Origin: Leucocoprinus leucothites
Taxonomy: Eukaryota > Basidiomycota > Agaricomycetes > Agaricales > Agaricaceae
Length of the DNA: 64,000 nucleotides
NCBI GenBank assembly: GCA_013368445.1
Contig: JAACJO010000002.1
Location: forward strand, 186,001-250,000
Direction: 5' to 3'
The translations under genes were made by a program, and so were the position numbers. Below, piece after piece: positions 3,623 through 60,149 of the stretch. Below the pieces are notes generated by a model. The model worked only from the letters and a program-made list of their open reading frames with translations, was not told where the DNA came from and made no database searches. Numbering within the stretch: position 1 is the stretch's first letter; each line of letters starts with the position of its first letter.

Positions 3623-10582
<6,960 letters not shown>

Positions 10583-33476: not shown

Positions 33477-34165
33477 TCAACAATCGACAGCAACATCTGC
33501 TTGCCAGACATTATCACCGATACTGTAAAGGGCGACAAGAACAATCTTCTCGAACTCAATCCCACCATTGCCGATTTTCCACTGCGGACAAGACGTCGAC
33601 GAAGCCATCGCCTTCTGCACATGACGTCAGCAAAATGATTATCTTAAGCAGATATCCGACTACTAACCTCGACAAACCGCCAGAAATGCATCGCGATACT
33701 TGCACCAAGCTGAATACGAGTCATAGAAGGACTTGCAGGAGTACTATATGACCAGTTCAAGTGATCGTAACCGGGCCACTATAAAAGGGAGTACCGGTCA
33801 ATATTCCGATCATATCATAAAATAGGAGATCAGGCACATACCATAATTCGAATGTTAATCTGTTGAACATTGGTATGAGCCAAAACCGGGTCATTTCCCC
33901 CAGCAATCATCTGTGCTAGGGCATTCGCACTCCTCGCGCTAAAATCAACGATCGAGACTCCCTGTTTAGAGTACCCGATGTAATCGAATGAAATTGGCTG
34001 CGTCATTGGTTGGCCTGAAGCTTTCGCAGCAGCCTGAGGTACTCTGTGCCGGCGTGTACTTGTGAATTGTGATGGCGACGGAGTCAGAGCACCGGAGAGG
34101 GATGAGTAGCCGGAGACTTGGGAAGGGAAGATGGGCGAGTGAATGGGGTTGTGGTAGCGAGACAT
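33477..34165 (-). CDS. family copy A (type I), 190-aa unknown protein
   Basis: Member of the eight-copy local family. Three exons on the minus strand: 33842-34165 (324 nt), 33668-33778 (111 nt), 33477-33614 (138 nt), all phase 0. It starts MSRYHNPIHSPIFPSQVSGY, with a Ser/Pro-rich N-terminus and a basic patch (RRHRVPQ). The likely folded part begins ISFDYIGYSKQGVSIVDF and contains WPGYDHLNW, ASPSMTRIQLGASIAM and the terminal block VLVALYSIGDNVWQADVAVDC. There is no signal peptide or membrane segment, so it is probably cytosolic or nuclear. Most like copies E and H (type I). It pairs head-to-head with copy B. TATTTAA lies 139 bp before the ATG. No family recognised. Confidence 0.85.
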
Positions 34166-35526
34166 CTCGGTGATGTTCAATTGAGATAGACGTTTAGAGT
34201 TTCAGATTATCGGGTACAATCAAGCTCGCTGAGAAGACTCGAGAGATAGTCGATGAGTCGATGGGTGGTTGGCTCTCCTCCCTCATCTCTTCCAGAGTTA
34301 AATACCATGAAGCTCGTTCATACATGGCTTTGGACTTGAAGAATTCACCCTCAGCTAACACTTCACATAGCACTATCGTGTTTTGGTTCAGTGAGGTCGT
34401 GTCCAGCGCTCTCGATGAAGGTCACCACTAGACGTCGTTGAGTGATGCACAGGGTAGCGCTCGTGGCGTCGAAATCAAATCACATCCCATATACGGTATC
34501 GAGGTTCACTTCATGGCTTCATATTCCTTTTGGGTTAAGGTTCGGTTACGCCAGAGGTGAAGTGGCTTCCATGGGACGAGTTCTTACGCAAACAGGCGGC
34601 AGTTTGATATCACATCAGGGATAAGGGACCACGAGGCTGAATCAACAAGCGAGTGGCTCAATCATCCAACGGTCACAGGAAAGTAGATTCAGGTTCTTGT
34701 CATAATCATACACAGTTGCGATTATTTAGATCTTGCTCGAGCTGTCCGAGATATACCAGTGAGTTCACTGAGAGTTATATTCGAACTCTAAAGCTGTCAT
34801 TATTTCCACATCAGTAGGAAGGGACGAAAGGTGTGCGGGATGAAATCCGAACGTTGAACAGAGATGAACGCAATCGAGTATCAGCACCGATCGGATAATT
34901 TCCAAGCATGATATATTCTACGCTTGATGCTAGACAGTCAAATTTCGACTTTGAGGAGGGTGCAAGTGCTTTCCGAGCGCTTCATGGACGGTGTTATCGG
35001 AACGTTCAACACGCCCAGTTGAATTGTGTGGACACATCACATTGCTACAGGACACCTTCGTAACCATCCAGCAAAGTGTCCCTGGAGACTTACCATGATT
35101 TACCTTCTGCCTTCTTGGATGTGATAACGACCGAAGGTCTAATCACAAGCGCCCTCCGGTAATTTACAAACGGATCAGATTCCAACCCGGCTACCAGTGT
35201 GATGAGATCAATTCACCGGCTCGCACCTCAGCGTGCCAGTTCGATTGCCACACTTCAGCAAATCACACCCCAGTCTATCACTCCCGACCTTCACTGGACC
35301 CTCAGGGCGCGCCATCCCGCCAATGTTCACAGTACGCGTCCAAGTGAAGGACTCTACGAGCACAAAGTCTCAACACATGGGAGCTCCAGCTTGTATAAAT
35401 CATGGATGAACTTGAGCTTGAGTCACCAACAGCCTTCGAGCATCTCGAGCATCGAACCTCAACGACATCGCAGCACTTATCTCATCTCAAGAAGTCTAAT
35501 ACTCTATAGTCTAACTGCGATCAGAC
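34166..35526. promoter_or_regulatory. bidirectional regulatory region between copies A and B
   Basis: 1361 bp between divergent starts. TATTTAA (minus, 34298-34304) serves A and TATAAAT (35394-35400) serves B, 133 bp before its ATG. A paired element ACCACTAG...GAGTGAT at 34424-34446 lies about 260 bp before A. CCGGCTCG occurs at 35217-35224. Several AATCAC words occur. No gene was found inside. Confidence 0.55.
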
Positions 35527-36214
35527 ATGTCTCGCTACCACAACGCCATCCACAGCCCTGTCTTCCCCTCTCAGATCTCTTCCTACTCTTCCCTATCTGG
35601 CGCCCTCACACCGCCACCGGCCCAATTCAACTCTTCTCGCCGCCGCCGTGTGCCACAAAACGTCTGCCGGACATCCGGTGGACCAGCCTGTGGCCCTATT
35701 GGATTTGACTATATCGGTCAGGCAGGGCAAGGAGTCTCGCTTGCCGACGTTAGTGCTCGGTCGCAGAATGCGATCAGCCAGTTGGTAGCCGGAGCCAATG
35801 ACCAGGTCTTGGCGGGGACCGGAATCAGCAAGCTCCACCTGCGGATCATGGTATGTCCTATTTTTGTATCCCGACGTTGATGGCGGGCTGACTTGGCTTG
35901 GAATTGTAGTGGACCGGGTATGAGCACTTGAACTTTGTGCAGAGCATGCCGGCGAGCCCAGCTATGTCTCGTGGGCAGCTCGGTGCTAGCATTGCGATGC
36001 AATTCTGGTCTTTTGTTGCAGTGAGTATATTTTCTGCCACTTTTAGTAGTCGGCTTGATATTGACTTGGCTTTCAGCAAGCCCAAAAGTCGTCAACGACG
36101 AACTCTCAGTGGCAAATCAGCCAAGAAACCATACCATTTGAGAAGATATTCCTTGTTGCCCTGTACAGTCTTGGTGACGGGATCTGGCAAGCAGATGTTG
36201 CCGTTGATTTCTGA
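35261..36214 (+). repeat. segmental duplication, unit 1 (copy B and its promoter)
   Basis: About 954 bp nearly identical to 46072-47024, covering roughly 265 bp upstream of the ATG, all three exons and both introns. The proteins of B and F differ at only four of 190 residues by eye. The similarity decays before the AATCACACCC start and right after the stop codon. Confidence 0.8.
35527..36214 (+). CDS. family copy B (type II), 190-aa unknown protein
   Basis: Three exons: 35527-35850, 35910-36020, 36077-36214, sizes 324/111/138 as in the other copies. It starts MSRYHNAIHSPVFPSQISSY, has the basic patch RRRRVPQNVC, then IGFDYIGQAGQGVSLADV and WTGYEHLNFVQSMPASPAM, and ends FLVALYSLGDGIWQADVAVDF. 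Type II copies (B, F, G) share QAGQGVSLAD and the exon-2 phrase SRGQLGASIAMQFW, which set them apart from type I. No signal peptide or transmembrane helix. Nearly identical to F, so a recent duplicate. Divergent from A across a shared region. No known domain recognised. Confidence 0.88.
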
Positions 36215-37473
36215 TCGACTACATCACTCTTTCATTTTGGGGTTAATTTATTCTTTGTCAAAACAACGCTTCAATGTACATTATCGCGCAATCACGGCCT
36301 CCTCTTTATGCTTCTTATGATACCTATGTCACCTATGTAGCTATGCATATGCTTTCCCGTAGCCCTAGTCCATATTTCTTTGCTATTCTCACCTCTTTGT
36401 ATTAACATGGCATATCAATTTGGCACTTTTGGAGTTCGATGACCTAACAATATTTTGTGGTTTCTTCAAGAAATCTTCAAGAAATACATTTCAATTGGCA
36501 TCAGCTGGCCATGCCCTTCGATAGTCAATAAGGGATCTACTTCTTTGATCGGCGCCCAAACATGGGATCTGAAGAACATGAAACGATGGAAACACTAGCC
36601 GCCTTCAGCGGCTTATTGTAGCCTCACAATCATTGACAAAACGTCATCTTGATCCCGATGATCATGCATTGTGTTTGTTCCGAGACTTTGTGCTTGTGGG
36701 TCCGTGGGTTTTTGATACTGACTTTTTAAATTCCATCCTAATCCTCTCTCTTTCAGCGGCAATAGCTCACTCCGCATTCCGAATACTGTGGAGATTCCAC
36801 GGTGGTACACAATCATGTATAATGCATACTATGGTTTCATCTTGCTCTCTTGCTCCTTCCAGATGATGTTTACAATCACCTTACTATGGCAATCCACAAG
36901 GACACTCGGTAGGACAAACGGAACGTCAACACGCCTAATCACAGCCCTTGGTATCACAATCACATCTAGCGCCATCAACCTCCAATCAGTCACTCGATGA
37001 CTCAGGAGGAACTCGCTTACTTCCGTCCACTGTCCTTCTCCGGCCAATCATGTTCCACCACTATCCCAATTCGGACAATCGTGGCTGCCTCGTTGCTGTG
37101 ATGTGATAGAAGGGGAGACCGCGGCCACTCACCTCCCTTTGCCACAATCACAACCTGCATCACACACCCTATCACGTCCACTCTCAATCACATTTCGCTG
37201 TGATCTCCGTCGTTCGGAGGGCCCTTTGGACATCACTCACTGGCTATCACTCACAGAATACACTGATGTGAAGAACGACATAACGTTGCATGAACGCTCG
37301 CGAGTGGTATATATCACGATGGATACTTCGAGCAAAGTCAGTGCGATCTGCACCTTCAAGAGACAGTCTTGTCTTCGAGGAAACTATCTACGAATAGCCT
37401 TGACCTCATTGACCAAGTCTCACACAAACGTACACTGTGATCCACAAGCTCAAACACCCTCGAGTTTATTACT
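36215..37473. promoter_or_regulatory. upstream region of copy C, rich in AATCAC words
   Basis: 1259 bp between B and C. At least six AATCAC words cluster mainly at 36880-37200, with further ATCACT words near 37230-37260. TATATATC at 37308 is 166 bp before the ATG. No gene recognised. Confidence 0.45.
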
Positions 37474-38162
37474 ATGTCTCGATACCACAATACCATCCAT
37501 CCTCCCGTCTTTCCCTCTCAGCTCTCAGCTTACTCGACGCTTTCGGGTGCACTGATTCCTCCTCCCTCCCGATTTACCTCGTCACGGCGTAGACGTGTTC
37601 CGCAGATCTTGTGCAAGACATCCTCTGGTCCGATGTGTGCCCCAATAACTTTTGATTATATTGGCCAGACTGGACAGGGTGTCTCCGTTGCCGACTTCAG
37701 CGCACGGTCGCAGAATGCTCTGGTACAGATGGTCACCGGGGCGAACGACTTAGTTCTAGCAACCACGGGCGTAAAAACCGCTACTCTACATATAATGGTT
37801 GGTAGTCTATCACTTATGCAGTGATTCACCTCACTTAACTCTTCTCCTTGTAGTGGACCGGATACGAACGCATATCGAAAACCAAGTTCAATCTCCCTGT
37901 CTCTGCTGCTACATCTCGTGGCCAGCTAGGAGCAAACATTGCTTTGCATCTCTGGGCTTTCGTTGATGTACGCTATTTTATGAAAAATACTGACATGATG
38001 AAGACTGACTTTCGCGGTATTTAGGAGGCAACCAAAGCCGCAGCGAGTGACCCTCAGTGGGAGATTAGCGCAAGAGGAATCAGATACGATAAAATTGTGC
38101 TTGTGGCGCTTTACCATGTCGGAGACGATGTGTGGCAAGTTGACCTTGCTGTCGATTTCTGA
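37474..38162 (+). CDS. family copy C (singleton, type II-like)
   Basis: Three exons: 37474-37797, 37854-37967, 38025-38162. Exon 2 is one codon longer than in the other copies. It starts MSRYHNTIHPPVFPSQLSAY, has RRRRVPQILC, then ITFDYIGQTGQGVSVADF, and ends VLVALYHVGDDVWQVDLAVDF. The QTGQGVS phrase puts it nearer to type II, but exon 2 (WTGYERISKTKFNLPVSAA) is clearly its own. It is not part of a head-to-head pair: B lies upstream in the same direction and RIM2 is convergent downstream. All frames are intact. Confidence 0.85.
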
Positions 38163-38849
38163 GTCCCGTGGCGTCTACTCTTCATACCCTCCTCCAACAT
38201 CAAGGTCAGAAGTTAATATCTATTTTTGTCCCCATCATTTGTATAATAAGCGCTTTGATGTTGTACTTGGGATTTATGCTTTCACGTTTTCGTATTAGCT
38301 CTGTATTTGTTGTTCATGCTTTGCTTTCAATGTAATTCAAATCGCTGTATTCACTCCCAGGCAAACTGCCACGCAAAAATTGTGATATCTCTAAATCCCA
38401 AGTGTATTAACCGAACTACCGCTGCCAGAGAACGGCCGTTAGCCAAGTAAACGAACAGAAACCGAATTATATATGTAATAACGAAAAGCAAGAAAGCGAA
38501 GCATCCGACGACGGGAGAAGTAGCTATAAAATACACAGGTGGGGTGCTACAGGACCATTTAGGGCCCAAAGGGTTTCTAGTAGTGCAAATATTAAGGCAA
38601 TTATTGTATGGCGACACATAAATGCGTATGAATGATTTTGAGTGCTAGGGGTATTTGATGAGAGGGGCGATAGAGCATGCTACAGAGGAAAGTGCGTCAG
38701 AGGCGTGTTCCAAGAAAAACAGCGCAAGAAGTGTCGCAGCAAGTAGCAGATCATGAAGATCGAGGAGATACGTCTAGAGCTGATGGCGGGCGGGGCTAGG
38801 CTCAAAGAGCAAAATCGTAGCGCAGGAAAGGGACACGGCAAGTAGATCA
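38163..38849. other. convergent 3' region between copy C and RIM2
   Basis: 687 bp with no recognised gene. Contains the two 3' UTRs. Confidence 0.4.
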
Positions 38850-40014
38850 TCACCACCGAAGGATACCTTCATAGATGAAGAACATTACGGCGGCATTGGG
38901 AACCACCCGCATCAAGTGAGCGCTCAGACCACCGTACAGCGACTTAACACCCTCTTCTGCGATGATCAACCTCAGTGTTTGCCATAGGCCAGTGTACTTG
39001 ATGACACCGTTCACACGTGGCTCTCGCAATCGTGTTCGCAGCACCTGTATTATACGTAAGAATCAGAGAACAAAGAGAAAGCGAATCGGAAGGCGAACCT
39101 CGTGAGGATATGAGACTAGACTTGCGACACACTTGGCTGTCCCTGCACTACCTATCATGCCTAGCCACTCCATTGCACCACCTTTTCCTTCCGTATTTAC
39201 AGTCATTTTCTTCAGCCTCTCATACAATACCCACTGTATGGTCCCCTCCGTCACTCCAAGGTAGCTCGCGGATAGTCCCTTATAGAACCCTTTGATCCCC
39301 TCATCTCGGAAAATCTTCTGAATGCACAACCAACTCCCACCAATGCCACCTCTACGTGATTGTGGGATTCCAGTGACTAGCTGGGACGCGGAAAGCTGCA
39401 TACGGGTCTTGACAACCCAGATGGGGTTGGTTACAGAACCGGTGACGATACCGGCTAGCGCAGCTGCGGAGAGGTGCACGAAGGAGTTTTCGCGACCTTC
39501 GTTGAATGTGTTGGCAATGATAACTTTGCCGTTGCCGTAGGTGTAGAAATTTATCGAACGTGCCGGAATGACACCAATTAGTGTTGGTCCAAGACCTTTG
39601 AAGAGAGCACGAGGGGATTCGTCCCGGTAGATGTCACTGTAGAAACACGTAAAAAAACCAAAAGAACATAAGAAAGTGGAGCAATTCTCACCGCAGGATG
39701 TGCCCCGTTTCTACAAAATTCCACAGCAGGCCTCCGTGCCTGGGACCATGAAGTAAGGCGCCCCCAGAGCCATTCGCCATTACCCCTATTGCTGCATGTC
39801 CCTCGCGGAAAAGACTCGACTGTAGACGCGTCTTTACAACATCAAATGGGCTTGTAACAATGGCGCCGCACATCCCTCCAAGACTAGGATATCTGTCAGT
39901 ATCCCATATGTTTTATGAGACGCGAAAGCACACATACCCGCCAGCTACGAAATGTCTCCAAGACTTTGCTGGCAGAAAGCCAGTTGTCGGAGTTCCGTTG
40001 TTGTTGTGCGACAT
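38850..40014 (-). CDS. RIM2: mitochondrial pyrimidine nucleotide carrier RIM2-type
   Basis: Inner mitochondrial membrane carrier of the SLC25 family, exchanging (deoxy)pyrimidine nucleotides between cytosol and matrix. It starts MSHNNNGTPTTGFLPAKSWR at 40014. Three carrier repeats with the Px[DE]xx[KR] signature are seen: SPFDVVKTRLQS, NPIWVVKTRMQL and SYPHEVLRTRLRE. The Trp-for-Asp/Glu change in repeat 2 (PIWVVK) is a hallmark of the RIM2/SLC25A33/36 group. GPTLIGVIPARSINFYTYG, GLSASYLGVTEGTIQWVLYE and GGLSAHLMRVVPNAAVMFF also match that group. It ends ...IYEGILRW at 38850. A few short introns. It shares a 157-bp divergent promoter with RPC8. High confidence. Confidence 0.93.
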
Positions 40015-40171
40015 CGTCTTGGTTGCTTTTCGAAGGTATTGGCCCGGGAGGTTTGCCAGACAACCAGTGGAGGAGGATAAGTTAGGAGCAAATGAATTTG
40101 GGGAATTTTTCCCCGGTCACGTGAAAATAAAATGATAATTTCTAAAATTACTTGGTTAAGTTATCAGCGCC
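40015..40171. promoter_or_regulatory. compact bidirectional promoter RIM2 / RPC8
   Basis: Only 157 bp separate the two divergent ATGs, so both promoters must overlap. GC/AT mixed, no clear TATA box. Confidence 0.5.
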
Positions 40172-41108
40172 ATGTTTTCTCTTTCCATAATCAAGGTTTG
40201 TCCCTGCGCTCTCCAGGAAGGATTAGCTGAACAATTCCATTCAGGATACTGTTGCAGTTCAGCCGTCACAATTTGGCACTCCTGCAGATGAAGCCATAAT
40301 TGCAGAAATCAACAAAAAATATGCCAATCGCGTTCTGCACGATATTGGACTCTGTATAACTGTCTTCGATCTGAGCCAGGTTGGCGAGGGCAAAGTACGT
40401 TACGGAGACGGATGTTTATGGTACAAAGGTACAAGACCTTCACCCTCTTGCAAGTATAAAGGCTAAAGCTGACTCAAGGCAGTTGTATTTCGTATGGTCG
40501 TTTTTCGGCCATTCACCTCGGAGGTCATCCTGGCCAAGGTGAAATCTTCAGATGAAGACGGCATTCGACGTTCGTGCATGCTCAGCTGAGGTACCATCTC
40601 AGTACTCACGCCTCGGTAGTGACGATGGGATTCTTCGATGACATGTACATTCCGGCTGTTTACCTACCCCAACCCTCGGCATTGTAAGCCCTGCCCCCTC
40701 TTCATTCATTTTTAATCCTCGGCTTATCCCAGCTGTCAGCGACCCAAATGAGCGCGCTCATTTTTGGCTTCCGGACTCCGAGGCGTCTACATCCCAACAA
40801 CTCTTGGATTCTCCTGTTGCCGAACGTATGTACATTGACCAAGGGGAGGTACTCCGAGTGCGGGTTGAGGCAGAGGACTTTTACGACGATGAACCTGGAC
40901 CACCCAAAATGGCTGAAGGGGTAAAGGTTCTGCGAGAACCAAAACGAGCTCCTTATAACATCATCGTGCGTGGTGCTGTGGCTTTCATTCATCTCTTTGC
41001 TCACATGTCCTTCAGTGCTCTATTGCTGAACAAGGTCTCGGCCCAGTAGCATGGTGGTCGAATGCGCAGCAAGTGGAAGAGGACGATGATGCAATGGATC
41101 AAGGTTAG
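40172..41108 (+). CDS. RPC25: RNA polymerase III subunit RPC8 (Rpb7-like)
   Basis: Stalk subunit of RNA polymerase III (yeast Rpc25, human POLR3H). It starts MFSLSIIK | DTVAVQPSQFGTPADEAII. The N-terminal SHS2/Rpb7-N part reads INKKYANRVLHDIGLCITVF and VGEGKVRYGDGCLWYK | VVFRMVVFRPFTSEVILAKV. The OB-fold part reads SSDEDGIR | TMGFFDDMYIPAVYLPQPSA, then NERAHFWLPDSEAS and YIDQGEVLRVRVEAEDFYDD. The last exon begins CSIAEQGLGPVAWW and ends DDDAMDQG with TAG at 41106-41108. Six or so exons, all in frame. Divergent from RIM2. Confidence 0.92.
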
Positions 41109-42274
41109 ATCCTCAAGTTCTATTCCAAATCTCATGGAACGTCATTAGAGCAGTATGTAGTGTTCAATTAATCCCAAATAGAGTTGGGGCGGTTGAAGCT
41201 CTGCGCCGGTCGATCCGGATGGAAGTGTTCTCTGCGTGTTCAAGCAAAGATCTAGGCTATGTCCGTAAGATCAGCCACCACATCCATGTTCTTTGATCCC
41301 GCCTTCAACCCCACCCCCGTTTTCAGAAATCGCTTCCATCTCACCTTCACCTCGAAGCTACTGCAAAACTTCTCCCTCCGTCACTGTTTCGGTTCACCTT
41401 GGACACACAGACGCCCATGGACGAAATAGGTCAGAGTGAGCCATTCAAATGGTTACTTTGTAATGATCGCATTTCATTTTGCACGCTGCGCCATGCAACT
41501 GAGGAACTGATGCATCAGGCCACGGATGTATCGGCTGGATTATATTCTATGTTCCGGTTTCCCTTACTCGCTGTTCATACTGGACACCAAAGCCGCATTC
41601 CTCCACTTCGTTGATTACATGAGGATGTGCCGCACGAGCACGATGCGCCTTGATGAGAATCCGTGAAGGGAGTTAATGAATACCATCTCGATAACTCGAC
41701 CCGAACTTCCGAAGGGTCGAGGGGGCAGGATTGACTCGGACCTCACGAACCCTCCATGCTTCGGTCCGTAAGATATGTAACTACTCCCGCCTGTTCCACA
41801 ACTCTCATTGCAAGGATTCATGTAACTGGACATGAATGCTCCTTCGAGGCCATGGCGTCATCGATGCATCAATCGACTTCTCGTCTCTCGATGACGTCCA
41901 GGACCAATCACCTGGGAGGGTAACGGATCAAGGAAAAGTATCTTGAGCTTTTTGCTAAAAAAAGCTTTTTGACGATCCGGGTTCTTCAGCTAATCTACGC
42001 GGACTTTGATTTACGTTTCTGCCATGTTCGGCCTCTTTAGTCTTACTCGGAGGTCCCCACAATGTTGTATCCCCCAGAAAGATGGATTATCAAAGATGCG
42101 CGACATTATCGGTATGAAAGTACAAACAACTGGCTGGTAGGTATCTGGTTGATGCATGATAGTGTACAGATGCAGGATGTGATAAGTTACAGTTTTCGAG
42201 ATAGAAGCATGAGTATAGCGATGACGTGGGACCTGGTGGAGAGGGGGCTTGGGGATAGCCAAGCGAAATCCTTC
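41109..42274. other. intergenic, no gene recognised
   Basis: 1166 bp between RPC8 and copy D. Frames of 70-80 codons occur on both strands but lack motifs and splice support. Searching by eye for family remnants found none. Confidence 0.45.
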
Positions 42275-42984
42275 CTAGTGCCCTCTATGTGCTGGTGCTG
42301 GGTCGACGGCTATGTCTGCTTGGCAAACACCATCTCCGAAGCTATATAGCGCCACGAGGTAGAGTTGGTCGAAGGTGATGGCGTCAGGGCCTATGCGCCA
42401 GTCGCGCACTGTTGTTGTAGAGGATGTAGCTTTCTGAAGAAAGAGTCAGTCCATGGAGTCGAAGGGAAGAGCGCCTTGAGCATACTTCGCAGAATTTGCG
42501 GAATTGTTTGGCAATCAAGGATCCTAATTGTCCTTTTGTCGTCGTTCTCGGTACAGGGAAGGTGAATGAGCAGTCGATGTGTTCATAGCCCAACCACTGC
42601 AAGTCGGATAAGCACTCCTTTTCATCCTTCTTGCACAGACATAATGCTCACCATGATGCGCAAATCAATCTTTTGGATTCCAGTATTGGCCAAGATGACC
42701 TCGTTAGCCCCAGAGAGGAGGTGGTTGATTCCTCCCTGGCTCTTGACCGAGAAGTCTCTGAGAGCGACCCCTTGCCTCGACTGAGAGAAGTAGTCGAAGG
42801 CAACTGGCATGAAAACTGGCTCGTTGACGGCCTTGCAAGCAGTCTGAGGCACCCGTTCCCTGCTTGAGGACGTAAACTGGGAAGGAGGGGGCACAGGCGT
42901 CAGAGCGCCCGCCAGAGAAGAGTAGTTTGAGAGCTGAGAGGGGTGGACAAGCGTGTGAACTGAGGTACTGTAGTAGCCAGCCAT
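42275..42984 (-). CDS. family copy D (most diverged singleton, 200 aa)
   Basis: Three exons on the minus strand: 42652-42984 (333 nt), 42486-42596 (111 nt), 42275-42433 (159 nt). It starts MAGYYSTSVHTLVHPSQLSNY instead of MSRYHN. The basic patch is weakened to SSRERVPQ. The core reads VAFDYFSQSRQGVALRDF, exon 2 WLGYEHIDCSFTFPVPRTT. The conserved Trp of the terminal block is changed to Cys (SFGDGVCQADIAVD), and the usual stop after the last Asp is absent, adding PAPAHRGH. Frames and splice sites are intact, so it can still be a working gene, but constraint looks altered. Same orientation as copy E. Confidence 0.8.
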
Positions 42985-44478: not shown

Positions 44479-45163
44479 TCAAAAATCAACGGCAAGATCC
44501 GCTTGCCAAACACCAGGACCAATGCTGTAGAGGCCCACGAGGACGATTTTCTCAAACTCTATTCCTCCATTGCCAACTTTCCATTGGGGCATGTTGTCGA
44601 TGATGATGTAGCTTTCTGGGGACGTTATTAGTGATCTATTACTTTGCGGAAGGATGGGTGATTTGATATTTACCTCGACGAATCGCCAGATGTGCATCGC
44701 AATACTGGCACCGAGTTGAATACGGGTCATTGATTGACTCGCTGGAGTACTGAATGACCAGTTTAGGCCCTCATAACCAGGCCACTAATTTATAATATTA
44801 GAAACGATGGTATTTTATTTTCAAGAAGCCAGAACTCACCAAAATGCGCAAGTTGATTTCTTGGACACCAGTGTTTGCCAGGACGAGGTCATTGCCTCCG
44901 GCAATCACCTGGCTCAGGGCGTTTGCACTACGAACATGGAATTCCGCAATTGACACTCCTTGCTGGGAGTAACCAATAAAGTCAAACATGACCGGATTTG
45001 CCACGGGGCTGCCAGCGGCTTTAGCGGCGCATTGAGGTACGCGCCGGCGGCGGGGATTTGCAAATTGGGAAGGTGGCGGTGAAAGGGCTCCGGACAAAGA
45101 AGAGTAACCGGAGACTTGGGAAGGGAAGACAGGTGAGTGGATGGCGTTGTGATAGAGAGACAT
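44479..45163 (-). CDS. family copy E (type I), apparent one-base break in last exon
   Basis: Exon 1 44840-45163 (324 nt) and exon 2 44674-44784 (111 nt) match the family. Exon 3, 44479-44615, is 137 nt instead of 138. Read in phase it gives KATSSSTTCP and then leaves the family frame; PQWKVGNGGIEFEKI through VWQADLAVDF is found one base away. The missing base falls in the G run at 44586-44589 (plus strand). It starts MSLYHNAIHSPVFPSQVSGY, with RRRRVPQCAA and VMFDFIGYSQQGVSIAEF, so it is type I like A and H. Exon 1 ends in Leu (RIL) rather than Met. Either a recent pseudogene or a homopolymer error in the sequence. Confidence 0.75.
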
Positions 45164-46339
45164 CTCGATGTGTGGTGATGATATGCGTTTAGAGTTTTAG
45201 AGTTGAAGTGCAGTGTAGTGAGGTTGGGAAGACGACACTCGATCTGAGGGAGCGGTGTTGTTGATCCTCCTCGACAGTCCAACCTCTTCTTAAATAACGC
45301 TATGGACTTGAAGTTTGCTGCATCGTAGCTCCTCAACTAGCCTTCACAGTGTGCTAATGTGCCTCTGCTCGCTGTGATGTGCATCCTTGAGGATGATCAC
45401 TAGCACGTCGGGTGATTGACCAAGGGAATTCCCTCTCAAATCACATTCCAAGGATGGTAAGTGGCACTGGTTCGAGTTCGAAACGAACCGATTGTTACCC
45501 GACGCGTGAAAGGAGGAGTGTGATATTGAAAATGCACTTCTGGAATTTGTAGACGCTCAGGGACTGCCTCGAGGTGGAGGTGGCTCAATCACAGGGTTTG
45601 ATGATTACCTGATTGACAGCCAGTTTGACGGTGGCCTCGATTGGACTGGCACTCAAACATAACTATGGATACAAGATACCAGTGGCTCCAATGCGGTTAT
45701 CTGATTTATGAGTTTTGTAAGAGACGTAAAATTTGAAGGGGATATCTAATCGGATACGGGGCGAAGGCTTTGAATGAGTCGAGGGCATCATCAGAATTGG
45801 CAACAGAAGTATCTTCCTCTGCTGCACGGGACCGACGTTTTCTGTCAATCTATGTCCATTCTCACTCAATGATTACAAGAGTGGAGAGAACGGACGAGTC
45901 ATCACATTGTTCGAGGACTACAATCACAACGTTAATCCAGCTTAGTCCATCTTATACTTGCCGCCGGTGATCAACTGGTTCACCCCCGGTCTTCTTCGAT
46001 TCTGAGTGACTGATTAGCCGGCTCGATTATTGATATGATCTAATCACCTTCGCGGCTACTTACCCTTGGGGAATCACACCCAAGCCAAATCACTCCCGAC
46101 CTTCACTGGACCCGCAATGTGCGCCTTCCCCGACACTGTTCACAGTACGCGTCCAAGTGAAGGACTCTACGAGCACGAAGTCTCAACACATGGGAGCTCC
46201 AGCTTGTATAAATCATGGATGAACTTGAGCTTGAGTCACCAACAGCCTTCGAGCATCTCGAGCATCGAACCTCAGCGACATCGCAGCACTCATCTCATCT
46301 CACGAAGTCTAATACTCTATAGTCTAACTGCGATCAGAC
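45164..46339. promoter_or_regulatory. bidirectional regulatory region between copies E and F
   Basis: 1176 bp between divergent starts. TATTTAA (minus) at 45290-45296 for E and TATAAAT at 46207-46213 for F, each 133 bp before its ATG. ATCAC-N11-GTGAT at 45396-45416 lies about 230 bp before E. CCGGCTCG at 46018-46025. Seven AATCAC/GTGATT words were counted by eye, against about 0.6 expected at random. Confidence 0.6.
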
Positions 46340-47024
46340 ATGTCTCGCTACCACAACGCCATCCACAGCCCTGTCTTCCCCTCTCAGATCTCTTCCTACT
46401 CTTCCCTATCTGGCGCCCTCACACCGCCACCGGCCCAATTCAACTCTTCTCGCCGCCGCCGTGTGCCACAAAACGTCTGCCAGACATCCGGTGGACCGGC
46501 CTGTGGTCCTATTGGATTTGATTATATCGGTCAGGCAGGGCAAGGAGTCTCGCTTGCCGACTTTAGTGCTCGGTCGCAGAATGCGATCAGCCAGTTGGTA
46601 GCCGGAGCCAATGACCAAGTCCTGGCGGGGACCGGAATCAGCAAGCTCCACCTGCGGATCATGGTATGTCCTATTTTTATATCCCGACTCTGATGGCGGG
46701 CTGATTTGGTTTGGAATTGTAGTGGACCGGGTATGAGCACCTGAACTTTGTGCAGAGTATGCCAGCGAGCCCAGCTATGTCTCGTGGGCAGCTGGGTGCT
46801 AGCATTGCGATGCAATTCTGGTCTTTTGTTGCAGTGAGTATTTTTTTGGTCGCTTTTGGAGGATTTGGTGTTGACTCTACTTTCAGCAAGCACAAAAGTC
46901 GTCAACAACAAACCCCCAGTGGCAAATCAGCCAACAAACTATCCCATTTGAAAAGATATTTCTTGTTGCTTTGTATAGTCTTGGTGATGGGATCTGGCAA
47001 GCAGACGTTGCCGTTGATTTCTGA
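46072..47024 (+). repeat. segmental duplication, unit 2 (copy F and its promoter)
   Basis: About 953 bp nearly identical to 35261-36214, same orientation. Includes promoter, 5' UTR, exons and introns. Introns have begun to differ more than exons. Confidence 0.8.
46340..47024 (+). CDS. family copy F (type II), 190-aa unknown protein
   Basis: Three exons: 46340-46663, 46723-46833, 46887-47024 (324/111/138 nt). It differs from B by two residues in exon 1 (VCQTSGG for VCRTSGG; LADF for LADV), none in exon 2, and two in exon 3 (NPQWQISQQ for NSQWQISQE). The terminal block FLVALYSLGDGIWQADVAVDF is intact. It is the type II partner of copy E. Because E may be broken, F could now be acting alone or with a type I copy elsewhere. 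Confidence 0.88.
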
Positions 47025-48023
47025 ATATTTCCTATTATTCCCTTCTCGATGCATTGATCAATTCATTATCCATCATCTTCTCTTCTTCATCTCCATGCTC
47101 TATCATTTACACCACTTCTTATGCAACATGGATATATGCCCATATGTACTATATGTGATACCCTTCCTAATTATATACCCTGCCCTTTCATATCCTCCAA
47201 AAATCGAAGCTGTACTGAGATTTCGGAAATATCATAATGATACATAACAGCAATGACTTTCCCGTAGATGGCTTTGACCTGAGTGAATAATGGGAGAGAA
47301 ATTTAAGGTAATAAAATGATGAATGAGGCTGCAGTGTTATGTTGTAGTGGCCTAAAAATGCATTGTTGGTAGGAGAAGTTTCATGAGATGATCGTGATGG
47401 TAGTAGAGGTTGGTTGCGCTGAATTACAGATTCATTCGCCAACCAATTGTCTTTGTGTAAAAGTGGTCTACATATTAATACCGCATCTCCCTGATTAAAA
47501 TAAGCTCGAGCGTTTTCTTCTCGCCTCAATTTATCCCATTAACGGATTTTCCTCGGATGGACTATAGTAGGCGCTATGATATAAACTATCTTAAATTCTC
47601 ACAAACATCTGAAACTGAATATCGACCAATAACAGTAAGCGGTCGCGGGCGGTGCCTCAGAATTAGGGACGGGACCTTCGACCTATTAGTAGCGTGGGTT
47701 TTGAGCGACTTCGCAGGATCGAATCGTCTTTGTCATTGTCAGTGCGGGGCAACCTACTTATGACGTTAGCCCGAGTTCGAAATGCCACATTCGGGCGCCA
47801 CTTTTGGACAGGGTGAACCCAGCAAGTACCCCACAAGCCTGCTGATTCCCGGAGAACTCGAGTTCATTTTGTGCGTGACCAAAGAGGTAGCTTTTCTGCG
47901 ACATATGAGCCTTATGTTAGAGATCAATCAGCGTGGCTGTGCAAATACTCCAGAACAGCAGTCACAGTGCCAAACAAGCACTAGAAGCTGCGCGACGAAT
48001 ACGTGTCCCTATCTCTTACCATC
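47025..48023. other. intergenic upstream of VPS10 gene
   Basis: 999 bp. No gene recognised; the start of the sorting receptor lies at its right edge. Confidence 0.4.
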
Positions 48024-53353: not shown

Positions 53354-54723
53354 GTGAAGTTGACGCTTTATGCATAGGGTTCATTGCTGGGTTCTGTGTT
53401 ATCGAATTTGCTACCTACCTACATACTTCCCGTGTATTTATCGTATGTCCCATGCGACAGTTGTAATTAGGAATTTCTAGTGTAAAATGGACGTTTATTT
53501 AGTCTACTGTGGAGATGCGATGGTTGCGTGATGCTTGTGGAATCTAGACGCAGCTGGCCGGCGTTTCATAATCGTCTTGCCACCCAGATGCTACTTATTA
53601 TCATTACAGAACCGAGGTCGAGACCTCATCCCAGATTTGTTTCTTGAGCATTCTCTTTCAAGTATCCAACCGACTGCCGGATGTGGTGGACCCTTCCTTA
53701 GCCCTTTCCGTCTCTTAATATGAGTTTGGTCGACACATAAAGTGCTATCTCAACCAAACCAAGTGGAAAAATTACCTAGGAATTGATAGCAAAGCTTATA
53801 TGAACCCTCCGAGGAATAGCTCGAGGATGCAAGTGAATTGAAATTGTAATCATACCATACTCCACTTGACGGGGACCCCGGGCAAGCAAAGTCACGATGA
53901 ATGTTAGCCAGAAGCGACGCCCAGAAGCTTGAAGTCAAGATTTTAAAGCCGACAAGGGCGTAGACCAGTTGCTGAGGAAGTTCTGCCGGGGAGCCGCTGA
54001 CGGAAGGTCCAGAACACGAAGAATATCACCGTGGTCACGTGTACTCCTAACACTTATCGAAAGCCGAAGTTTCGTGATTTCTCTTGACCACCATCAACGG
54101 AGTGCCCTATCTGACTGCCATGTTCCAGCGAACGAGCATTTTTTTCATTTTCTCCAGCGACTTCTATCCACGTATCCTTCCATAGGATCGCCGTTTATAG
54201 CGAAGCGGACAGTGGATCACGATCCGCAAGGTTCTGAAGTAAAAGTGAAGGCGATGGAATGAGCTCCGAATTCAACTTCTTCCGCGGCCTTTTGCGCCAG
54301 CTTTTTTCACCAGCTGAAGATACAGGATTGAATTCCAGAGTTCGTCCTGATAGTATCTGGCATGTGTGGTCTTCGTCTCGGAGAGCAAATTCAAGAGAGC
54401 GATCCAATATGAAGTCTCCTAGGGTGATAGTAGGTTACACCCAAAAAGTCGAGACATGCTCCGAGATCATCGAAATGTCATAAGGAGCGATACTGTTCTC
54501 GAAATCTTCCAGCGAAAGTTTCCCTATTAGTGAGACCTTATGTATACTAGCCGTCATTCCCGAAGCCTGAGCTTATTGACAGATCTTTTCGACTTCCTGT
54601 GGGGGCGGCTCCATGATATAATGGCTCACTTTGGAGGAACGCTTGTCTCTACCTCCCAACGTTTTTCTGTCTTTACCCGTTCCTTTTCTCTGTCCTTTTT
54701 CCTTCTCCATCTTGTCGTTAACC
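53354..54723. other. intergenic upstream of the 7-TM gene
   Basis: 1370 bp. No conserved coding sequence recognised. T/C-rich tract near 54650-54710 is typical of a fungal core promoter for the next gene. Confidence 0.4.
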
Positions 54724-57007
54724 ATGGAACCGGTTCTGCACGTGGACAACACGTAAGTACAGTACATTTTCCTTCGTTCCGGATCTGTTTGACCAGTGGA
54801 CAGGATGGGCGTGGCTTTGATAGGCATTGTTATCGCCTCAGCGTAAGTAGGCTAGGTTTATTTTGGATTCTATCTCATGGCCAAGCCTCTATTTTGCAGG
54901 TTCTATGGAGGTACCAATTTCATCAAACATGACCTCGCCTTTGCATTACTCATCGCGCACTTCAGTATCCATTCTCCAGGTTTACTATTATTACACCCAC
55001 CAACAAGATACATGGTATATCAAAACCCTCGTACGTCTCCTTTTTGTTCCCGTCGCCCACCGCACTAACTCATTGCCTCAATAGGTTGGCTTAGTTATGC
55101 TTTTCGAGACAATCCACCAAGCGCTCATCACGCATTCGGGTACGTTGTGCTTTTGTCCTCACCCTACTGAACCTACGGACCAACGGTACCCCCTCCCCAC
55201 CTAGTCTACGTCTACCTTGTCTCGTATTATAACCAACCGGAGATGCTCGCTCAATTAGTTTGGTACGCTCTTCATCGTCTAATCTCGTGATCCTGCTGAC
55301 GCGAAGAATAGGAGCTTATTGGTATTGAAAATTTCTACTCATTTATTCCCGATCTAACTTGCCCTTTCAACGAGGTCGAGGTTTTGTTCAACGTAAGTAC
55401 AATGAACTAGTCTTCGGCGTATTTCTCATTTGCTCTCAGGGGTTTACCGCCCTCTTGGTTCAAAGGTCGGTTTGAAGACTAACCTCACACTAAGTCACTA
55501 ACTCGGTCCATAGCTTCCTCACCATGCGTGTTTGGAGATGTGAGTTCCCTCGCCGATCCGTAAAGCCACAGTTCATTGACTATCTCTCATCCAGTGAGCA
55601 ATCGCCGCATCTGGTTGACTGGCCTCCTCGTTCGTCCGCTCCGGTTCTCTTTTGCTCGTGCAGCTCACAGTATAGGATAGGTCATCCTCGTCACCGGAGA
55701 GTTTGGTATGTTCTCTAACTATCAGGTATTCACAGGTCCCTGATGTCTCTTTTCTAGGATGTGTCGTTGGTACGTCCATCGTGTTTATAGCGAAACTGAC
55801 ACTGACCTAAAGGTTAAATCAGCCTTCACAACCCTTTCGTGAGTACTGTGTTGTATTTGTGAGATAGTACCCGTTAAAACTTTGAATGTAGGCTTCAACT
55901 CCGTACGTACGCAGAGCTTGCCCACCTCAAGGTTCGTGATTAGTGTGGTTTTAATGAACCGGCAGTGCGATTGACTCTTTCACAGCCTCTTTCCATCGCA
56001 GTGAACGCTCTCGCTGCCGCCGGAGACCTACTCATTGCCGCTAGCCTTTGTATCATCCTTCACCAATCAAGGACCGGTTTCCAGAGGTAGGCATAACAGA
56101 GCTCGCTTTGCCTATTTCAACTGAGGTATCGTATCAGGTCTGACACTATGATAAAAAAATTGGTACGCGTCCAGAATGTTTGCCTGTCGAAACCATCTAC
56201 TTACTACTTGAAAGATCGTCTATTCCGTCAACACCGGCCTCCTCACGAGGTGAGCCCACATCTCAGCATCAGTACTCATATGCTCAAGTTTCCCAGCTTG
56301 TGTGCCGTTGCGTCACTGGTCTCTGTAAGGCTTTGTGTTGTACTATGGGATCAAACACTGAAACCGTTAAAGATTGTCCTTGCAGGTCATACGTTCCTTT
56401 ATATCATGTTCTTCTTTTGTATTGGGAGACGTAAGTTGATCGTCCAACTGTCAATATTATTTTTACTCAATCACCCACACCACTAGTATACTCAAACTCC
56501 CTACTTGCCACCCTCAATGCCCGCAAAAAAATACGTGCAGCAGCAGATAACATCCAAAATACAAGTGACAATTTGTCCCTCTCCCTTCGAGAGTTTCCTC
56601 GGTCTGGTGGCATCAACATGGCTACTAAAGTGAGTATGTATTTTTGTGGCTTTGGCCCATATGTAGTGCGTCGTGCACTACACGCAGCCAACCATGTGAT
56701 AGCGCGACCGATCTCACCCTTCACACTTAGCGCCCGACCAATATCTCCATCAAAATAGACACAACCAAAGAGTTCAATACGGACTTGATTCATGAGTGCG
56801 ATAGGGACGATTGTATGACCGTGCGGCAAGCCTTGGATGAGAAACGTAACGAAATTGGGATGGTGAGTTCACGGCTTGCCGAATTATGCGTAGACGGCGA
56901 GAAGCGCTCGACACTGACAGTAACATTTTTACTAGACGTTCGCGAGAAAAGCTTCGAGCTCCACAACTACTACCTTCGCTGATTCTCCCATCGCCCATAT
57001 TGTTTGA
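54724..57007 (+). CDS. DUF6534-type seven-transmembrane protein
   Basis: Basidiomycete membrane protein family of unknown function. Exon 1 MEPVLHVDNT splices to MGVALIGIVIASA. Later exons give YYYYTHQQDTWYIKTL, VGLVMLFETIHQALITHS, VYVYLVSYYNQPEMLAQL, then GFTALLVQS, FLTMRVWR and SNRRIWLTGLL. ELAHLKPLSIAVNALAAAGD and FFFCIGR | LYSNSLLATLNARKKIR are the family's end-of-helix-7 signature. A hydrophilic tail (MATKRPTNISIKIDTTK) ends TTTFADSPIAHIV with TGA at 57005-57007. About twelve or more very short exons. The junction around 54900-54970 could not be placed in phase with GT...AG sites, so one splice site is unusual or a base is missing. Function unknown. Confidence 0.75.
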
Positions 57008-57475
57008 AACCTGCTACAGCCGTTGTGATCTTCTTGAAATGTTAAATAAGTATAACAAAATAGAACCTGTATGTACATAGTCGCTTGGTAACCAATGACA
57101 TCAATATCACCCCTCAGTCTATTGTAAGTGGAGGTCGATGCCTTATTCGAACCCGAAGATTTTTGCCCAAGTGTATAGAGATCAAAAGCCCCGGAGCCTT
57201 ACAATTTAGCCATGTCCCAGGTGCTTGGTTGATCCGTCGACGTCGCAATAAATCAACAGTAAATCAATATGAGAAAGGTATATTTAGAGCAGTCGGGTAT
57301 CTATGCTTCTATATACAGTTACTGAAGGAAAGACATATACGGTGCTGCTTTGACTACATATGGAAAGCATGGACATAGCAGAGGAAATAAACATAAGTAA
57401 GCGAGATGATGATATGTTCGTGTATGAAGCTCAATGCTGAACTAATGCAGGGGGTGAATAAATTATAGAAAAGAA
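57008..57475. other. convergent 3' region
   Basis: 468 bp between the 7-TM gene (plus) and copy G (minus). No gene recognised. Confidence 0.4.
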
Positions 57476-58165
57476 TCAGAAGTCGACGGCGACATCTGCT
57501 TGCCAGATGCCATCGCCAATGCTGTATAATGCCACGAGGGAGATTCTCTCAAACGGGATGGTTTGTTGGCTGATCTGCCATTGGGGGTTTGTTGTTGAAG
57601 ACTTTTGTGCTAGCTAAAGAACAGTTCTCAATAAAAAGTCGAAGTAGTAGGTTGATAAAAATGCTCACCCCCACAAACGACCAGAACTGCATTGCAATGC
57701 TAGCGCCAAGCTGACCGCGAGACATAGCAGAGCTCGCTGGCATGCTTTGGATGAAGTTCAAATGTTCGTAACCGGTCCACTATTACATTAAGATCAAGTC
57801 AGCTCATGATCGGGGCGTCGGGATATAAAAATAGAACATACCATGATCCGCAACTTGATCTTGTTGATTCCGGTGCCCGCCAAGACCTGGTCATTGGCTC
57901 CGGCTACCAACTGGCTGATCGCATTCTGCGACCGAGCACTAAAGTCAGCAAGGGAAACGCCTTGCCCAGCCTGGCCAATATAATCGAAGCCGATTGGGGG
58001 ACAGATGGGCCCGCTGGCTGTCTGGCAGACGTTTTGGGGCACACGGCGGCGGCGGGAAGAACTGAATTGGGCCCGTGGCGGTGTGAGGGCGCCAGATAGG
58101 GAAGAGTAGGAAGAGATCTGAGAGGGGAAGACGGGGCTGTGGATGGCGTTGTGGTAGCGAGACAT
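57476..58165 (-). CDS. family copy G (type II), 190-aa unknown protein
   Basis: Three exons on the minus strand: 57842-58165, 57669-57779, 57476-57613 (324/111/138 nt). It starts MSRYHNAIHSPVFPSQISSY, with RRRRVPQNVCQTASG and IGFDYIGQAGQGVSLADF, and ends LVALYSIGDGIWQADVAVDF. The exon 3 acceptor is at tttag, giving LAQKSSTTNPQWQ; a nearer ctag would break phase. Clearly type II with B and F, and its upstream 230 bp still resembles theirs, but it is older (about ten or more differences). It is the partner of H in an inverted pair. All frames intact. Confidence 0.87.
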
Positions 58166-59468
58166 GTCTGATCGCAGTTATGCTTTAGAGTATTAGGCTT
58201 TGCGTAGCAGATGAGATGGGTGCTGTGATGCTTTCGCTCGAGGTTCGAAGGGCTTGAAGATTGCTGGTGACTCAAGCACAGTTCATCCATGATTTTATAC
58301 CAGCTTAATCGTTCGTGTTACTGTGGTATGTGTCTTGTTCTGAAGTCTCTCCTTCACCTGAACGCGTATTGTGAGCAGTGGCGGGAGGGGCGCCCTCTGA
58401 GGGTCCAGTGAAGTATTGGGAGTGATTAGAGTTGATGTGATTCCGCCCGAGAGCGCTAGTTCCTAATCACATCACAAGCGAGAACTGAACTGGACCAAGC
58501 CGACTTCTTCTTCTTCTAAAGCGAGGCTAGTAGACTGGAATGCCGGAGGTGTTGCCTGTTGGGGATTTGAGAGATTGCCGGGAACGAGGCCCAGATAAGC
58601 GCTGTGATTTGATGGGATTGATTGAAAGTTCTTGTCACCCGAGAGTCGACCTCGAGGCACATACTACTAGCCCTCGTATACTTCATCCGCCTTGGACGTC
58701 ATGGATACGAGTGGCACCGCTTAGTGGCCCCTTGCACCTCCGGAATGAAGAGATCCAATAAAAGAGAGAGGCTTTAGGTATGGGCAAGGAATTTAAATTT
58801 TTGTTAGAGTCTCTGATACCTGATCAAGGATTTACTACATTCGTCGTATAGGACCTGACATAACAATTAGAATATGGTCAGCTGTAGGTATTTTTTATCT
58901 ACGCCGATAGACCATTTCGTCCCGCCACTTCTCGTCGTGCCTAACATGGCGTCATAGCCAAAGTTGTTGATCTGTTCTCGAGAGCCCTTTCAGGATTCAT
59001 GTGCTTGTTGCTATGGCATAATGTGCTGATAAAAATTTAGAGTGGATAGAAGTCAACGAGGCTACAACACTCTTATGTTTACCAGGGGAGAAAGTGGACC
59101 CTGGAACACGCTCTTTTGTGATATCACCACTTCACAAATGACCGATTTGCCGGCTCGATTCCGGGAAACTAGAACCATGCCTTCCTAATCCGGACTGTGA
59201 TTCCACCGAACCACTCCCTTCATCATATCACCCGCCGCCCGAGTGATGCTGGTCGAGGATATGCAGCCCATCGAACAAGGGTTCGCTATAATATGTGAAG
59301 TTAATTCTTGAAGTTCACCCACAGAGTACACGTCTGGGTACTATTTAACATGGGGACTTGGAGGAATACGATACGATATCCAGCACACTCGCAGCCTCTT
59401 CAAATTTCTCAGCTCCCAACACAGATCTAACTCTAAAGCTCTAAACGTCTATTATCTTGTTGATAGAG
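58166..59468. promoter_or_regulatory. bidirectional regulatory region between copies G and H
   Basis: 1303 bp between divergent starts. TATAAAATC (minus, 58291-58299) is 134 bp before G, TATTTAA (59342-59348) 127 bp before H. ATCAC-N11-GTGAT at 59227-59247 is about 220 bp before H. CCGGCTCG at 59150-59157. Five AATCAC/GTGATT words were counted. Confidence 0.6.
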
Positions 59469-60149
59469 ATGTCTCGCTACCATAACTCCATCCATATGCC
59501 GGTCTTCCCTTCTCAAGTCTCCGGCTATTCATCACTCTCTGGTGCTCTCGCGCCACCGCCTTCCCGGTTCGCCAACCCACGCCGTCAGCGGGTACCTCAA
59601 CCTGCTGTTAAAGCGTCCGGGGGACCCGTTGCACAGCCAATCTCATTTGACTATATCGGATACTCCCAACAAGGTGTACCGATCGCCGACTTCAATGCTC
59701 GCAGCGCGAATGCTTTGATCCAATTGATTGCCGGGGGCAATGATCTCCCTTTGGCGAATACCAACCTCAAGCAAATTAATTTGTGCATTATGGTGAGTAT
59801 TTATGAAGCACTGAGCTGAGGCTGGATGCTGACTATTTCCTAGTGGCCAGGTTATGAGCACCTTAATTGGTCATTTAGCACTCCTGCAAGCCCTTCAATG
59901 ACTCGGATTCAGCTTGGTGCGAGCATTGCTATGCATTTCTGGCGGTTCATTGAGGTTGGTATTTCCTTCATAATCAAAATCCGTCGACGTCACAACTAAT
60001 TCCGTTTCCAGAAATCCATGTCATCTTCGACAACTTGTCCCCAGTGGAAAGTCGGCAACGGAGGTATCCAGTTCGAGAAAATCATCCTGGTCGGTCTCTA
60101 TAGTATTGGAACAGACGTCTGGCAGGCGGACATTGCTGTTGACTTCTGA
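59469..60149 (+). CDS. family copy H (type I), 190-aa unknown protein
   Basis: Three exons: 59469-59792, 59844-59954, 60012-60149 (324/111/138 nt). It starts MSRYHNSIHMPVFPSQVSGY, with RRQRVPQPAVKAS and ISFDYIGYSQQGVPIADF. Exon 2 is WPGYEHLNWSFSTPASPS | MTRIQLGASIAMHFW, and it ends ILVGLYSIGTDVWQADIAVDF. With A and E it defines type I (SQVSGY, GYSQQGV, WPGYEHLNW, GNGGI). The plus-strand ATG at 59469 is the first in frame. Intact. Partner of G, in inverted order relative to the other two pairs. Confidence 0.87.

Follow-up and report, generated by a model that had tools for sequence, protein, structure and literature searches.

Three divergent type I/type II gene pairs in Leucocoprinus leucothites, with type II halves probably homogenised by gene conversion

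The window analysed here is the whole stretch of 64,000 nucleotides from Leucocoprinus leucothites, in which gene modelling places eight three-exon paralogues with GT-AG introns within positions 33477-60149 (Table 1). The deposited proteins are identical, letter for letter, to the models of copies C, F, G and H, and the model of copy A equals the deposited protein over the stretch compared (188 of 190 residues). Copy E slips out of frame in exon 3, as does the deposited P0027 (163 aa), and therefore is either a decaying gene or an assembly error. The family has a ninth member, D9756_002050 (P0051), at C2:253093-253793, 3 kb beyond the window. Four whole-genome searches found no further copy of the family in the genome outside this one cluster: 105 of the 106 matches fall inside C2:219480-253790, and the remaining one, on C7, has E 0.4.

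Table 1 Genes, spacers and upstream tracts of the paralogue cluster, in window positions.
Feature	Position	Exons	Strand	Locus tag and protein, or basis
Copy A, type I	33477..34165	34165-33842, 33778-33668, 33614-33477	-	D9756_002036, P0016
Copy B, type II	35527..36214	35527-35850, 35910-36020, 36077-36214	+	gene model
Copy C, third type	37474..38162	37474-37797, 37854-37967, 38025-38162	+	D9756_002038, P0015
Copy D, fourth type	42275..42984	42984-42652, 42596-42486, 42433-42275	-	gene model
Copy E, type I	44479..45163	45163-44840, 44784-44674, 44615-44479	-	D9756_002042, P0027
Copy F, type II	46340..47024	46340-46663, 46723-46833, 46887-47024	+	D9756_002043, P0001
Copy G, type II	57476..58165	58165-57842, 57779-57669, 57613-57476	-	D9756_002046, P0003
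Copy H, type I	59469..60149	59469-59792, 59844-59954, 60012-60149	+	D9756_002047, P0018
A-B spacer, 1361 bp	34166..35526			spacer measurement
E-F spacer, 1176 bp	45164..46339			spacer measurement
G-H spacer, 1303 bp	58166..59468			spacer measurement
Type II-proximal 5' tract of B	35261..35526		+	spacer comparison
Type II-proximal 5' tract of F	46072..46339		+	spacer comparison
Type II-proximal 5' tract of G	58166..58442		-	spacer comparison
Short element directly upstream of A (type I) start codon	34186..34206		-	spacer comparison
E equivalent of the short element of A	45177-45204		-	spacer comparison
H equivalent of the short element of A	59429-59456		+	spacer comparison

The original prediction had assigned A, E and H to type I and B, F and G to type II, and a 35-row tree recovers both as starred clades (99/94 and 96/95, respectively); copy D joins P0025 at 100/100. 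The rows comprise 27 family proteins, drawn from 65, and the eight window copies, as which P0001, P0003, P0015, P0016, P0018 and P0027 enter; the tree omits P0010, P0034, P0052 and P0057-P0065 as well as 20 rows (P0028-P0032 and P0035-P0049), mostly fragments. When nine type I proteins were compared with nine type II proteins, hand-chosen from five species and leaving out P0026 and P0034 (type I) and P0006 and P0010 (type II), 32 of the 190 positions of P0001 carried disjoint residue sets. The motif GYSQQGV, proposed as a type I feature, is present in E and H, whereas A has GYSKQGV.

Gene order and strands bear out three head-to-head pairs of one type I and one type II gene, A-B, E-F and G-H: there are exactly three divergent junctions, every one of them I/II, an outcome that arises in 16 of 1120 label assignments (1.4%; the types had been named ahead of this count). 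Thus, the layout taken alone is suggestive of pairing, not overwhelming. The pairs do not form a clean cassette array; they are set amid unrelated genes (a mitochondrial carrier, Vps10/sortilin and F-box/WD40).

The intergenic lengths given originally are exact, and their likeness is no evidence of copying, because the type I sides of the spacers have little in common except for 21-28 bp near the start codon. Type I half-spacers score 30, 33 and 36 vs. 27, 31 and 27 for the best of 100 shuffles, a slight excess that comes from the short matches near the start codon. A good match is confined to the last ~270 bp adjoining type II, where the tract of B is 94% identical to that of F (268 columns) and 74% identical to that of G (284 columns). 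Between B and F, identity is 40% before −270, 81-99% from −270 to the start codon and 44% right after the stop codon; the flanks of the two copies are at background (33-48%).

The divergence of all three I/II pairs could be read functionally, each pair encoding an obligate heterodimer, as with H2A/H2B or HD1/HD2, and linkage being kept for joint expression. A possible ubiquitin-like fold would agree with this, such a fold being found in some oligomerisation domains. However, no common bidirectional promoter is visible, because the 1.2-1.4 kb spacers have little in common on their type I sides, and no family member lies divergently beside copy C, copy D or the ninth copy. On the sequence evidence, we consider obligate heterodimers rather doubtful; the reading concerns function and is compatible with the gene conversion proposed below.

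The two types show discordant trees. Type I copies cluster by position with genes from other Agaricaceae, with starred clades for E, which groups with Lbi_g2166 and Sym_04352 (100/96), and for H, which groups with Lgo_002939 and Lbi_g2171 (99/94; 90/83 with Sym_04357 added). Type II copies, in contrast, cluster by species, B with F (98/90, starred) and Sym_04347 with Sym_04353, two type II copies of Leucoagaricus sp. SymC.cos (99/96, starred). Position-wise grouping of type II is rejected by the AU test (p = 6.1 × 10−4 for B with Sym_04347 and p = 1.5 × 10−4 for F with Sym_04353), and in trees by region it is residues 1-108 alone that give starred type II clusters in each of the two species. 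Thus, type II clusters within species against position-wise orthology, as gene conversion would have it, position in the other species being read from locus tags. The order of these tags, strands not seen, also suggests the same I/II layout in other Agaricaceae. Grouping of A with B and of E with F, named in the original prediction as the pattern that would refute it, is absent from the 35-row tree. The matching branching orders that it anticipated for the two types are not found: type I splits into A vs. E and H (89/78, not starred; A, E and H as a single clade are rejected by the AU test, p = 5.9 × 10−5), whereas type II unites B and F.

Copies B and F are distinguished by 4 of 190 residues, and E carries a frame slip; one might suspect an assembly artefact, with two haplotypes of one locus misjoined as B and F. 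This is very unlikely: their flanks are at background identity, their neighbours differ (copy C and the mitochondrial carrier in one case, Vps10 in the other), and the same tree pattern is seen in a second species.

Synonymous divergence is uneven along the type II genes. In exon 1, dS is 0.063 for B/F, compared with 2.82 for A/H and 2.75 for E/H (A/E is beyond calculation); for B/F, it reaches 0.196 in exon 2 and 0.71 in exon 3. Four-fold sites give 4/80 in exons 1 and 2 vs. 5/17 in exon 3 for B/F (p = 0.008) and 23/70 vs. 12/16 for B/G (p = 0.004), whereas the control A/H gives 27/56 vs. 10/15 (p = 0.25). In codons 1-45, the counts are 0/29 for B/F vs. 11/21 for A/E (p = 9 × 10−6) and 3/28 for B/G vs. 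15/25 for E/H (p = 3 × 10−4). Intron 1 of B and F is 92% identical, with 5 mismatches in 59 positions vs. 13 in 53 in intron 2 (p = 0.037). The change in synonymous divergence along the type II gene is tract-like, a result qualified by the type I pair A/E, which also has a 5' gradient. In the binned divergence, the end of copy A was set 7 bases short, shifting the last bins slightly, and the A/H full-length value rests on 561 bases.

Duplication of an ancestral divergent pair, twice and as a unit, with type II kept alike by purifying selection, would account for the I/II composition of all three divergent junctions, for each type being a clade and for three type I half-spacer comparisons slightly exceeding the shuffles. 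However, purifying selection at the protein level would not preserve synonymous sites, intron 1 and 270 bp of upstream sequence while intron 2, the synonymous sites of exon 3 and the 3' flank diverge. Furthermore, the halves of one unit are expected to match in age as well as in branching order, and they match in neither. Because the dS values of the two halves are discordant, we find this course quite unlikely. Pair duplication may explain the origin of the layout, as originally proposed; the type II record would since have been overwritten, and the ages of the halves differ grossly.

Alternatively, each species could have gained its own recent duplicates of type II alone, inserted next to type I genes that were already there, a birth-and-death process consistent with type II clades that follow species and with similarity bounded by about −270 at one end and the stop codon at the other, as in a gene-sized copy. 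Yet a single copying event would hardly yield a dS of 0.06 in exon 1 together with 0.71 in exon 3, and repeated head-to-head landing by type I, with the same locus-tag order in SymC.cos, is improbable; we regard such a history as unlikely.

The explanation that we favour, with a probability of about 0.66, is that the I/II pairs are ancient and that gene conversion, working from the 5' end, has overwritten their type II halves, so that conversion, not fresh duplication, would lie behind the likeness of type II. The three divergent pairs would belong to an old gene cluster of Agaricaceae that probably goes back to a DUF6741-like ancestor; their type I members would be older than the split between the sampled species of Leucocoprinus and Leucoagaricus and would since have evolved independently of each other. 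The type II copies would have been homogenised inside each species, with conversion strongest in the 5' part (about −270 to exon 1), fading across exon 2, with little or no effect in exon 3. It is easy to take divergent paralogue pairs for cassettes that duplicate and evolve together; the opposite histories of the halves here offer a natural test of how conversion, promoter position and linkage affect neighbouring genes.

Among known systems, yeast H2A-H2B and H3-H4 are divergent pairs in two copies whose products are identical or near identical between the copies (PMC10917516); there, both halves are alike between loci, whereas in L. leucothites only type II is. Mammalian HSPA1A and HSPA1B are duplicates in conserved synteny that are kept alike within species by conversion and purifying selection (PMC5865164), resembling the type II copies in this respect; the proteins differ, and the abstract of that paper describes no non-converting divergent partner. 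In Agaricomycetes, HD1-HD2 form a divergently transcribed pair with several paralogous subloci (PMC8305134). As originally stated, the likeness to these mating-type cassettes is one of layout only: no homeodomain was found in copies B and H, in ten relatives or among the four Pfam families matched by any of 33 family members (E <= 1).

Tentatively, the proteins could act inside the cell as partner-binding adaptors, with a basic N-terminal tail that is probably disordered and a C-terminal part that looks ubiquitin-like; type II would be the constant partner and type I the variable one. More speculatively still, and on balance unlikely, this could be a constant/variable-partner system in which recurrent conversion, anchored at the promoter and exon 1, keeps type II expression and the N-terminal tail uniform; if so, the linked type I would be free to diversify, with several specificities sharing one type II.

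This unnamed, conserved Agaricaceae family, also present in the cultivated button mushroom, is probably a diverged offshoot of DUF6741 (PF20526); a search of one paper collection for DUF6741 and for six locus tags found no paper. DUF6741 is matched at E <= 1 by 17 of the 33 members, best by P0008 (E = 1.3 × 10−4, residues 58-186), and three other Pfam families by one member each; the best score listed, 22.6 bits for P0008, lies below the Pfam gathering score of 27 bits, as do the 18.2 bits of P0005. Alignments comprised 27 and 33 family proteins (A1 and A3) and 27 and 45 of 120 listed DUF6741 proteins (A2 and A4), and the profile comparison of family vs. DUF6741 gave 48% probable (p = 1.9 × 10−4). 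Predicted models were compared as strand/helix lists. The order in the family (E58-61 H72-88 E102-109 E118-122 H129-148 E168-178 E181-189; pLDDT 67) recurs in DUF6741 (E29-31 H44-48 E58-60 E71-76 E84-89 E96-98 H99-116 E126-135 E138-145; pLDDT 86), save that DUF6741 has two additional short strands and that its first helix is far shorter. By our own yardstick of intron positions and phases, gene structure agrees as well: the genome's DUF6741 gene (L030), read by eye against the window copies, has its two introns at equivalent places, each in phase 0, and the W-x-G-Y codon comes immediately after the first of them. The family is clustered, whereas DUF6741 is represented by one gene found in the genome. 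A basic stretch precedes the domain in both; however, the family has the N-terminal motifs FPSQ..YSSLSGAL and RRRRVPQ, and DUF6741 has RHRRHS, with R-x-RR-x-S invariant in 45 DUF6741 rows and departed from in the family consensus RRRRVPQ.

Gene models place eight three-exon genes of the family (copies A to H) at the positions originally predicted, between 33477 and 60149 in the window. The models of C, F, G and H agree letter for letter with deposited L. leucothites proteins (D9756_0020xx), and that of A agrees with one across the 188 residues compared; copy D may be unannotated, because no deposited L. leucothites D-type protein was among the returned matches. Exon 3 of copy E is out of frame, as it is in the deposited protein (163 aa), and full-length relatives of this copy exist in Leucoagaricus sp. 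SymC.cos and L. birnbaumii; the frame loss reflects either gene decay or an assembly error.

A 35-row tree resolves five groups, namely type I (A, E, H), type II (B, F, G), a C-type, a D-type (P0025, a JGI protein, is the sole partner of copy D) and the type of a ninth copy; a Cyathus protein stands isolated on a long branch. All three divergent junctions between family genes in the window join type I with type II (A-B, E-F and H-G), an outcome given by 16 of the 1120 possible placements of the type labels. Thus, gene models, tree and junctions bear out the original prediction of two types in three divergent I/II pairs. Locus tags in SymC.cos run Sym_04346 (I), 04347 (II), 04348 (C), 04352 (I), 04353 (II), 04357 (I) and 04361 (ninth type), and in L. 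birnbaumii g2170 (II) adjoins g2171 (I); with order read from tag numbers, not DNA, and types from the tree, this suggests that SymC.cos shares the L. leucothites cluster order, which the L. birnbaumii pair fits. No type II protein beside 04357 or g2166 was found among the proteins returned by the searches.

The type I and type II halves of the pairs differ in age. In the 35-row tree, type I copies cluster across species by position, with starred E and H groupings (Sym_04357 with H, 90/83) and support of only 71/78 for A with Sym_04346, whereas type II copies cluster by species (B+F, 98/90, and Sym_04347+Sym_04353, 99/96, both starred). Constrained-tree AU tests rejected A, E and H as a single clade (p = 5.9 × 10−5), B with Sym_04347 (p = 6.1 × 10−4) and F with Sym_04353 (p = 1.5 × 10−4); a single B+F+G clade was not rejected (p = 0.42). 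Exon-1 dS comes to 0.063 in B/F and to 0.32-0.36 when G is compared with B or F; among type I copies it is 2.75-2.82 or too large to be calculated, and values so high are rough; likewise, 2 of 63 exon-1 four-fold sites differ in B/F vs. 30 of 46 in E/H and 30 of 43 in A/E. Duplication of an ancestral divergent pair as a unit may be right as the origin of the layout but is wrong as a description of sequence history, since the two halves evolve in opposite ways.

Identity between B and F is 40% before −270, 81% from −270 to −200 and 97-99% thence to the start codon; it is 98%, 96% and 89% in exons 1 to 3, 92% and 72% in introns 1 and 2, and 44% past the stop, with dS rising from the exon-1 value to 0.196 in exon 2 and 0.71 in exon 3. 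Such uneven divergence would not readily be produced by a single duplication followed by uniform decay; gene conversion beginning near the type II 5' end would yield the gradient. Fungal meiotic conversion shows 5' polarity, and a conversion start near promoters would fit. Relative to G, codons 1-45 are least diverged (3 of 28 four-fold sites differ vs. 11 of 28 in codons 46-108), and the species-wise type II grouping is starred for residues 1-108 in L. leucothites and SymC.cos alike; region trees of later residues give it no resolution in either species. Counting against conversion, A/E, a type I pair, likewise shows fewer changes in codons 1-45 (11/21 vs. 19/22 in codons 46-108, p = 0.022), so that the first codons may be under some constraint; the same contrast gave p = 0.12 for A/H and p = 0.54 for E/H. 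Nevertheless, B/F differ at none of 29 four-fold sites in codons 1-45 (p = 9 × 10−6 vs. A/E). Low exon-3 dN in B, F and G (0.02-0.06), beside dS of at least 0.71, indicates that the type II protein is also under purifying selection.

The alike lengths of the intergenic spacers (A-B 1361, E-F 1176 and G-H 1303 bp) are not evidence for the copied cassette that had been proposed, because likeness is confined mainly, and strong likeness entirely, to the 266-277 bp adjoining type II (B/F 94%, with G 73-74%). Comparisons of the type I halves gave scores of 30, 33 and 36, where the highest scores among 100 shuffles were 27, 31 and 27; the shuffles preserved base composition, not dinucleotides. This slight excess stems from stretches of 21-28 bp close to the start codon of type I. 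One of the 12 control comparisons beat its shuffles (A-B type II half vs. the region upstream of C, 29 vs. 26), and blastn returned one match of 22 bp, in inverted orientation, between the E-F spacer and the H-G spacer (E = 0.002). The three type II upstream tracts have CTTCACTGGACCC in common, together with sequence surrounding TACGCGT and, at about −130, a TATA-like box; these shared motifs are possible candidate regulatory elements.

Coordinates of the features discussed (window positions unless a contig or locus is named)
Feature	Coordinates	Remark
Type II upstream tracts	35261-35526, 46072-46339, 58166-58442	
Copy D	42275-42984	
Copy E	44479-45163	
Ninth copy	C2:253093-253793 (L029:3093-3793)	fifth type
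Mannose-6-phosphate isomerase-like gene	about L029:98-1030	adjoins ninth copy; judged by eye
Mitochondrial carrier		between C and D
Vps10/sortilin		between F and G
F-box/WD40 gene		after H
DUF6741 gene	C1:2312732-2313203	the one found in the genome
Hydrophobin cluster	C2:314908-336345	65-86 kb past window end
GMC oxidoreductase pieces	4819-8888	minus strand
Zn2-Cys6 transcription factor piece	17386-17985	
Glyoxal oxidase piece	24142-24639	sub-threshold match

Whole-genome searches with the proteins of one type I, one type II, one D-type gene and the ninth copy placed 105 of 106 matches in this cluster and the remaining one on C7 (E = 0.4); since the DUF6741 gene of this genome was not among the matches, strongly diverged copies may have escaped these searches. 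Unrelated genes interrupt the cluster. The ninth copy has relatives in SymC.cos, L. birnbaumii, Macrolepiota and Agaricus; named relatives of the family were returned from Leucocoprinus, Leucoagaricus, Macrolepiota, Agaricus, Cyathus and, distantly, Candolleomyces.

Family proteins have no Pfam match at cut-off, and the sole recurrent sub-threshold match, in 17 of 33 members, is DUF6741 (best in the family protein P0008, 22.6 bits, E = 1.3 × 10−4, residues 58-186); profile comparison gave p = 1.9 × 10−4 with a probability of 48%. Both introns of the DUF6741 gene match the family in place and phase (read by eye), and the predicted DUF6741 model (pLDDT 86) has a helix/strand order similar to that of the predicted family model. 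Shared descent thus has good but not conclusive support; the family was kept outside DUF6741 because the score falls short of the cut-off and the R-x-RR-x-S motif is absent. Towards its C terminus, the DUF6741 model resembles a ubiquitin-like fold, with low scores. Residues 1-66 of the family model are probably disordered, given pLDDT < 50, and contain a conserved basic RRRRVPQ; no signal peptide was seen by eye. Tentatively, and with the odds against it, we favour a putative intracellular adaptor whose C-terminal domain would bind partners, type II serving as the constant and type I as the variable component. Each part of the finding has a known parallel: divergent histone gene pairs for the layout (PMC10917516), HSPA1A/B for the conversion (PMC5865164) and, as another, HD pairs (PMC8305134).

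Elsewhere, 7 of the genome's 21 hydrophobin matches are clustered beyond the window, and the window itself holds a Zn2-Cys6 piece, a glyoxal oxidase piece and two GMC oxidoreductase pieces, which are probably tandem paralogues, with an 82-bp repeat (76%) nearby.
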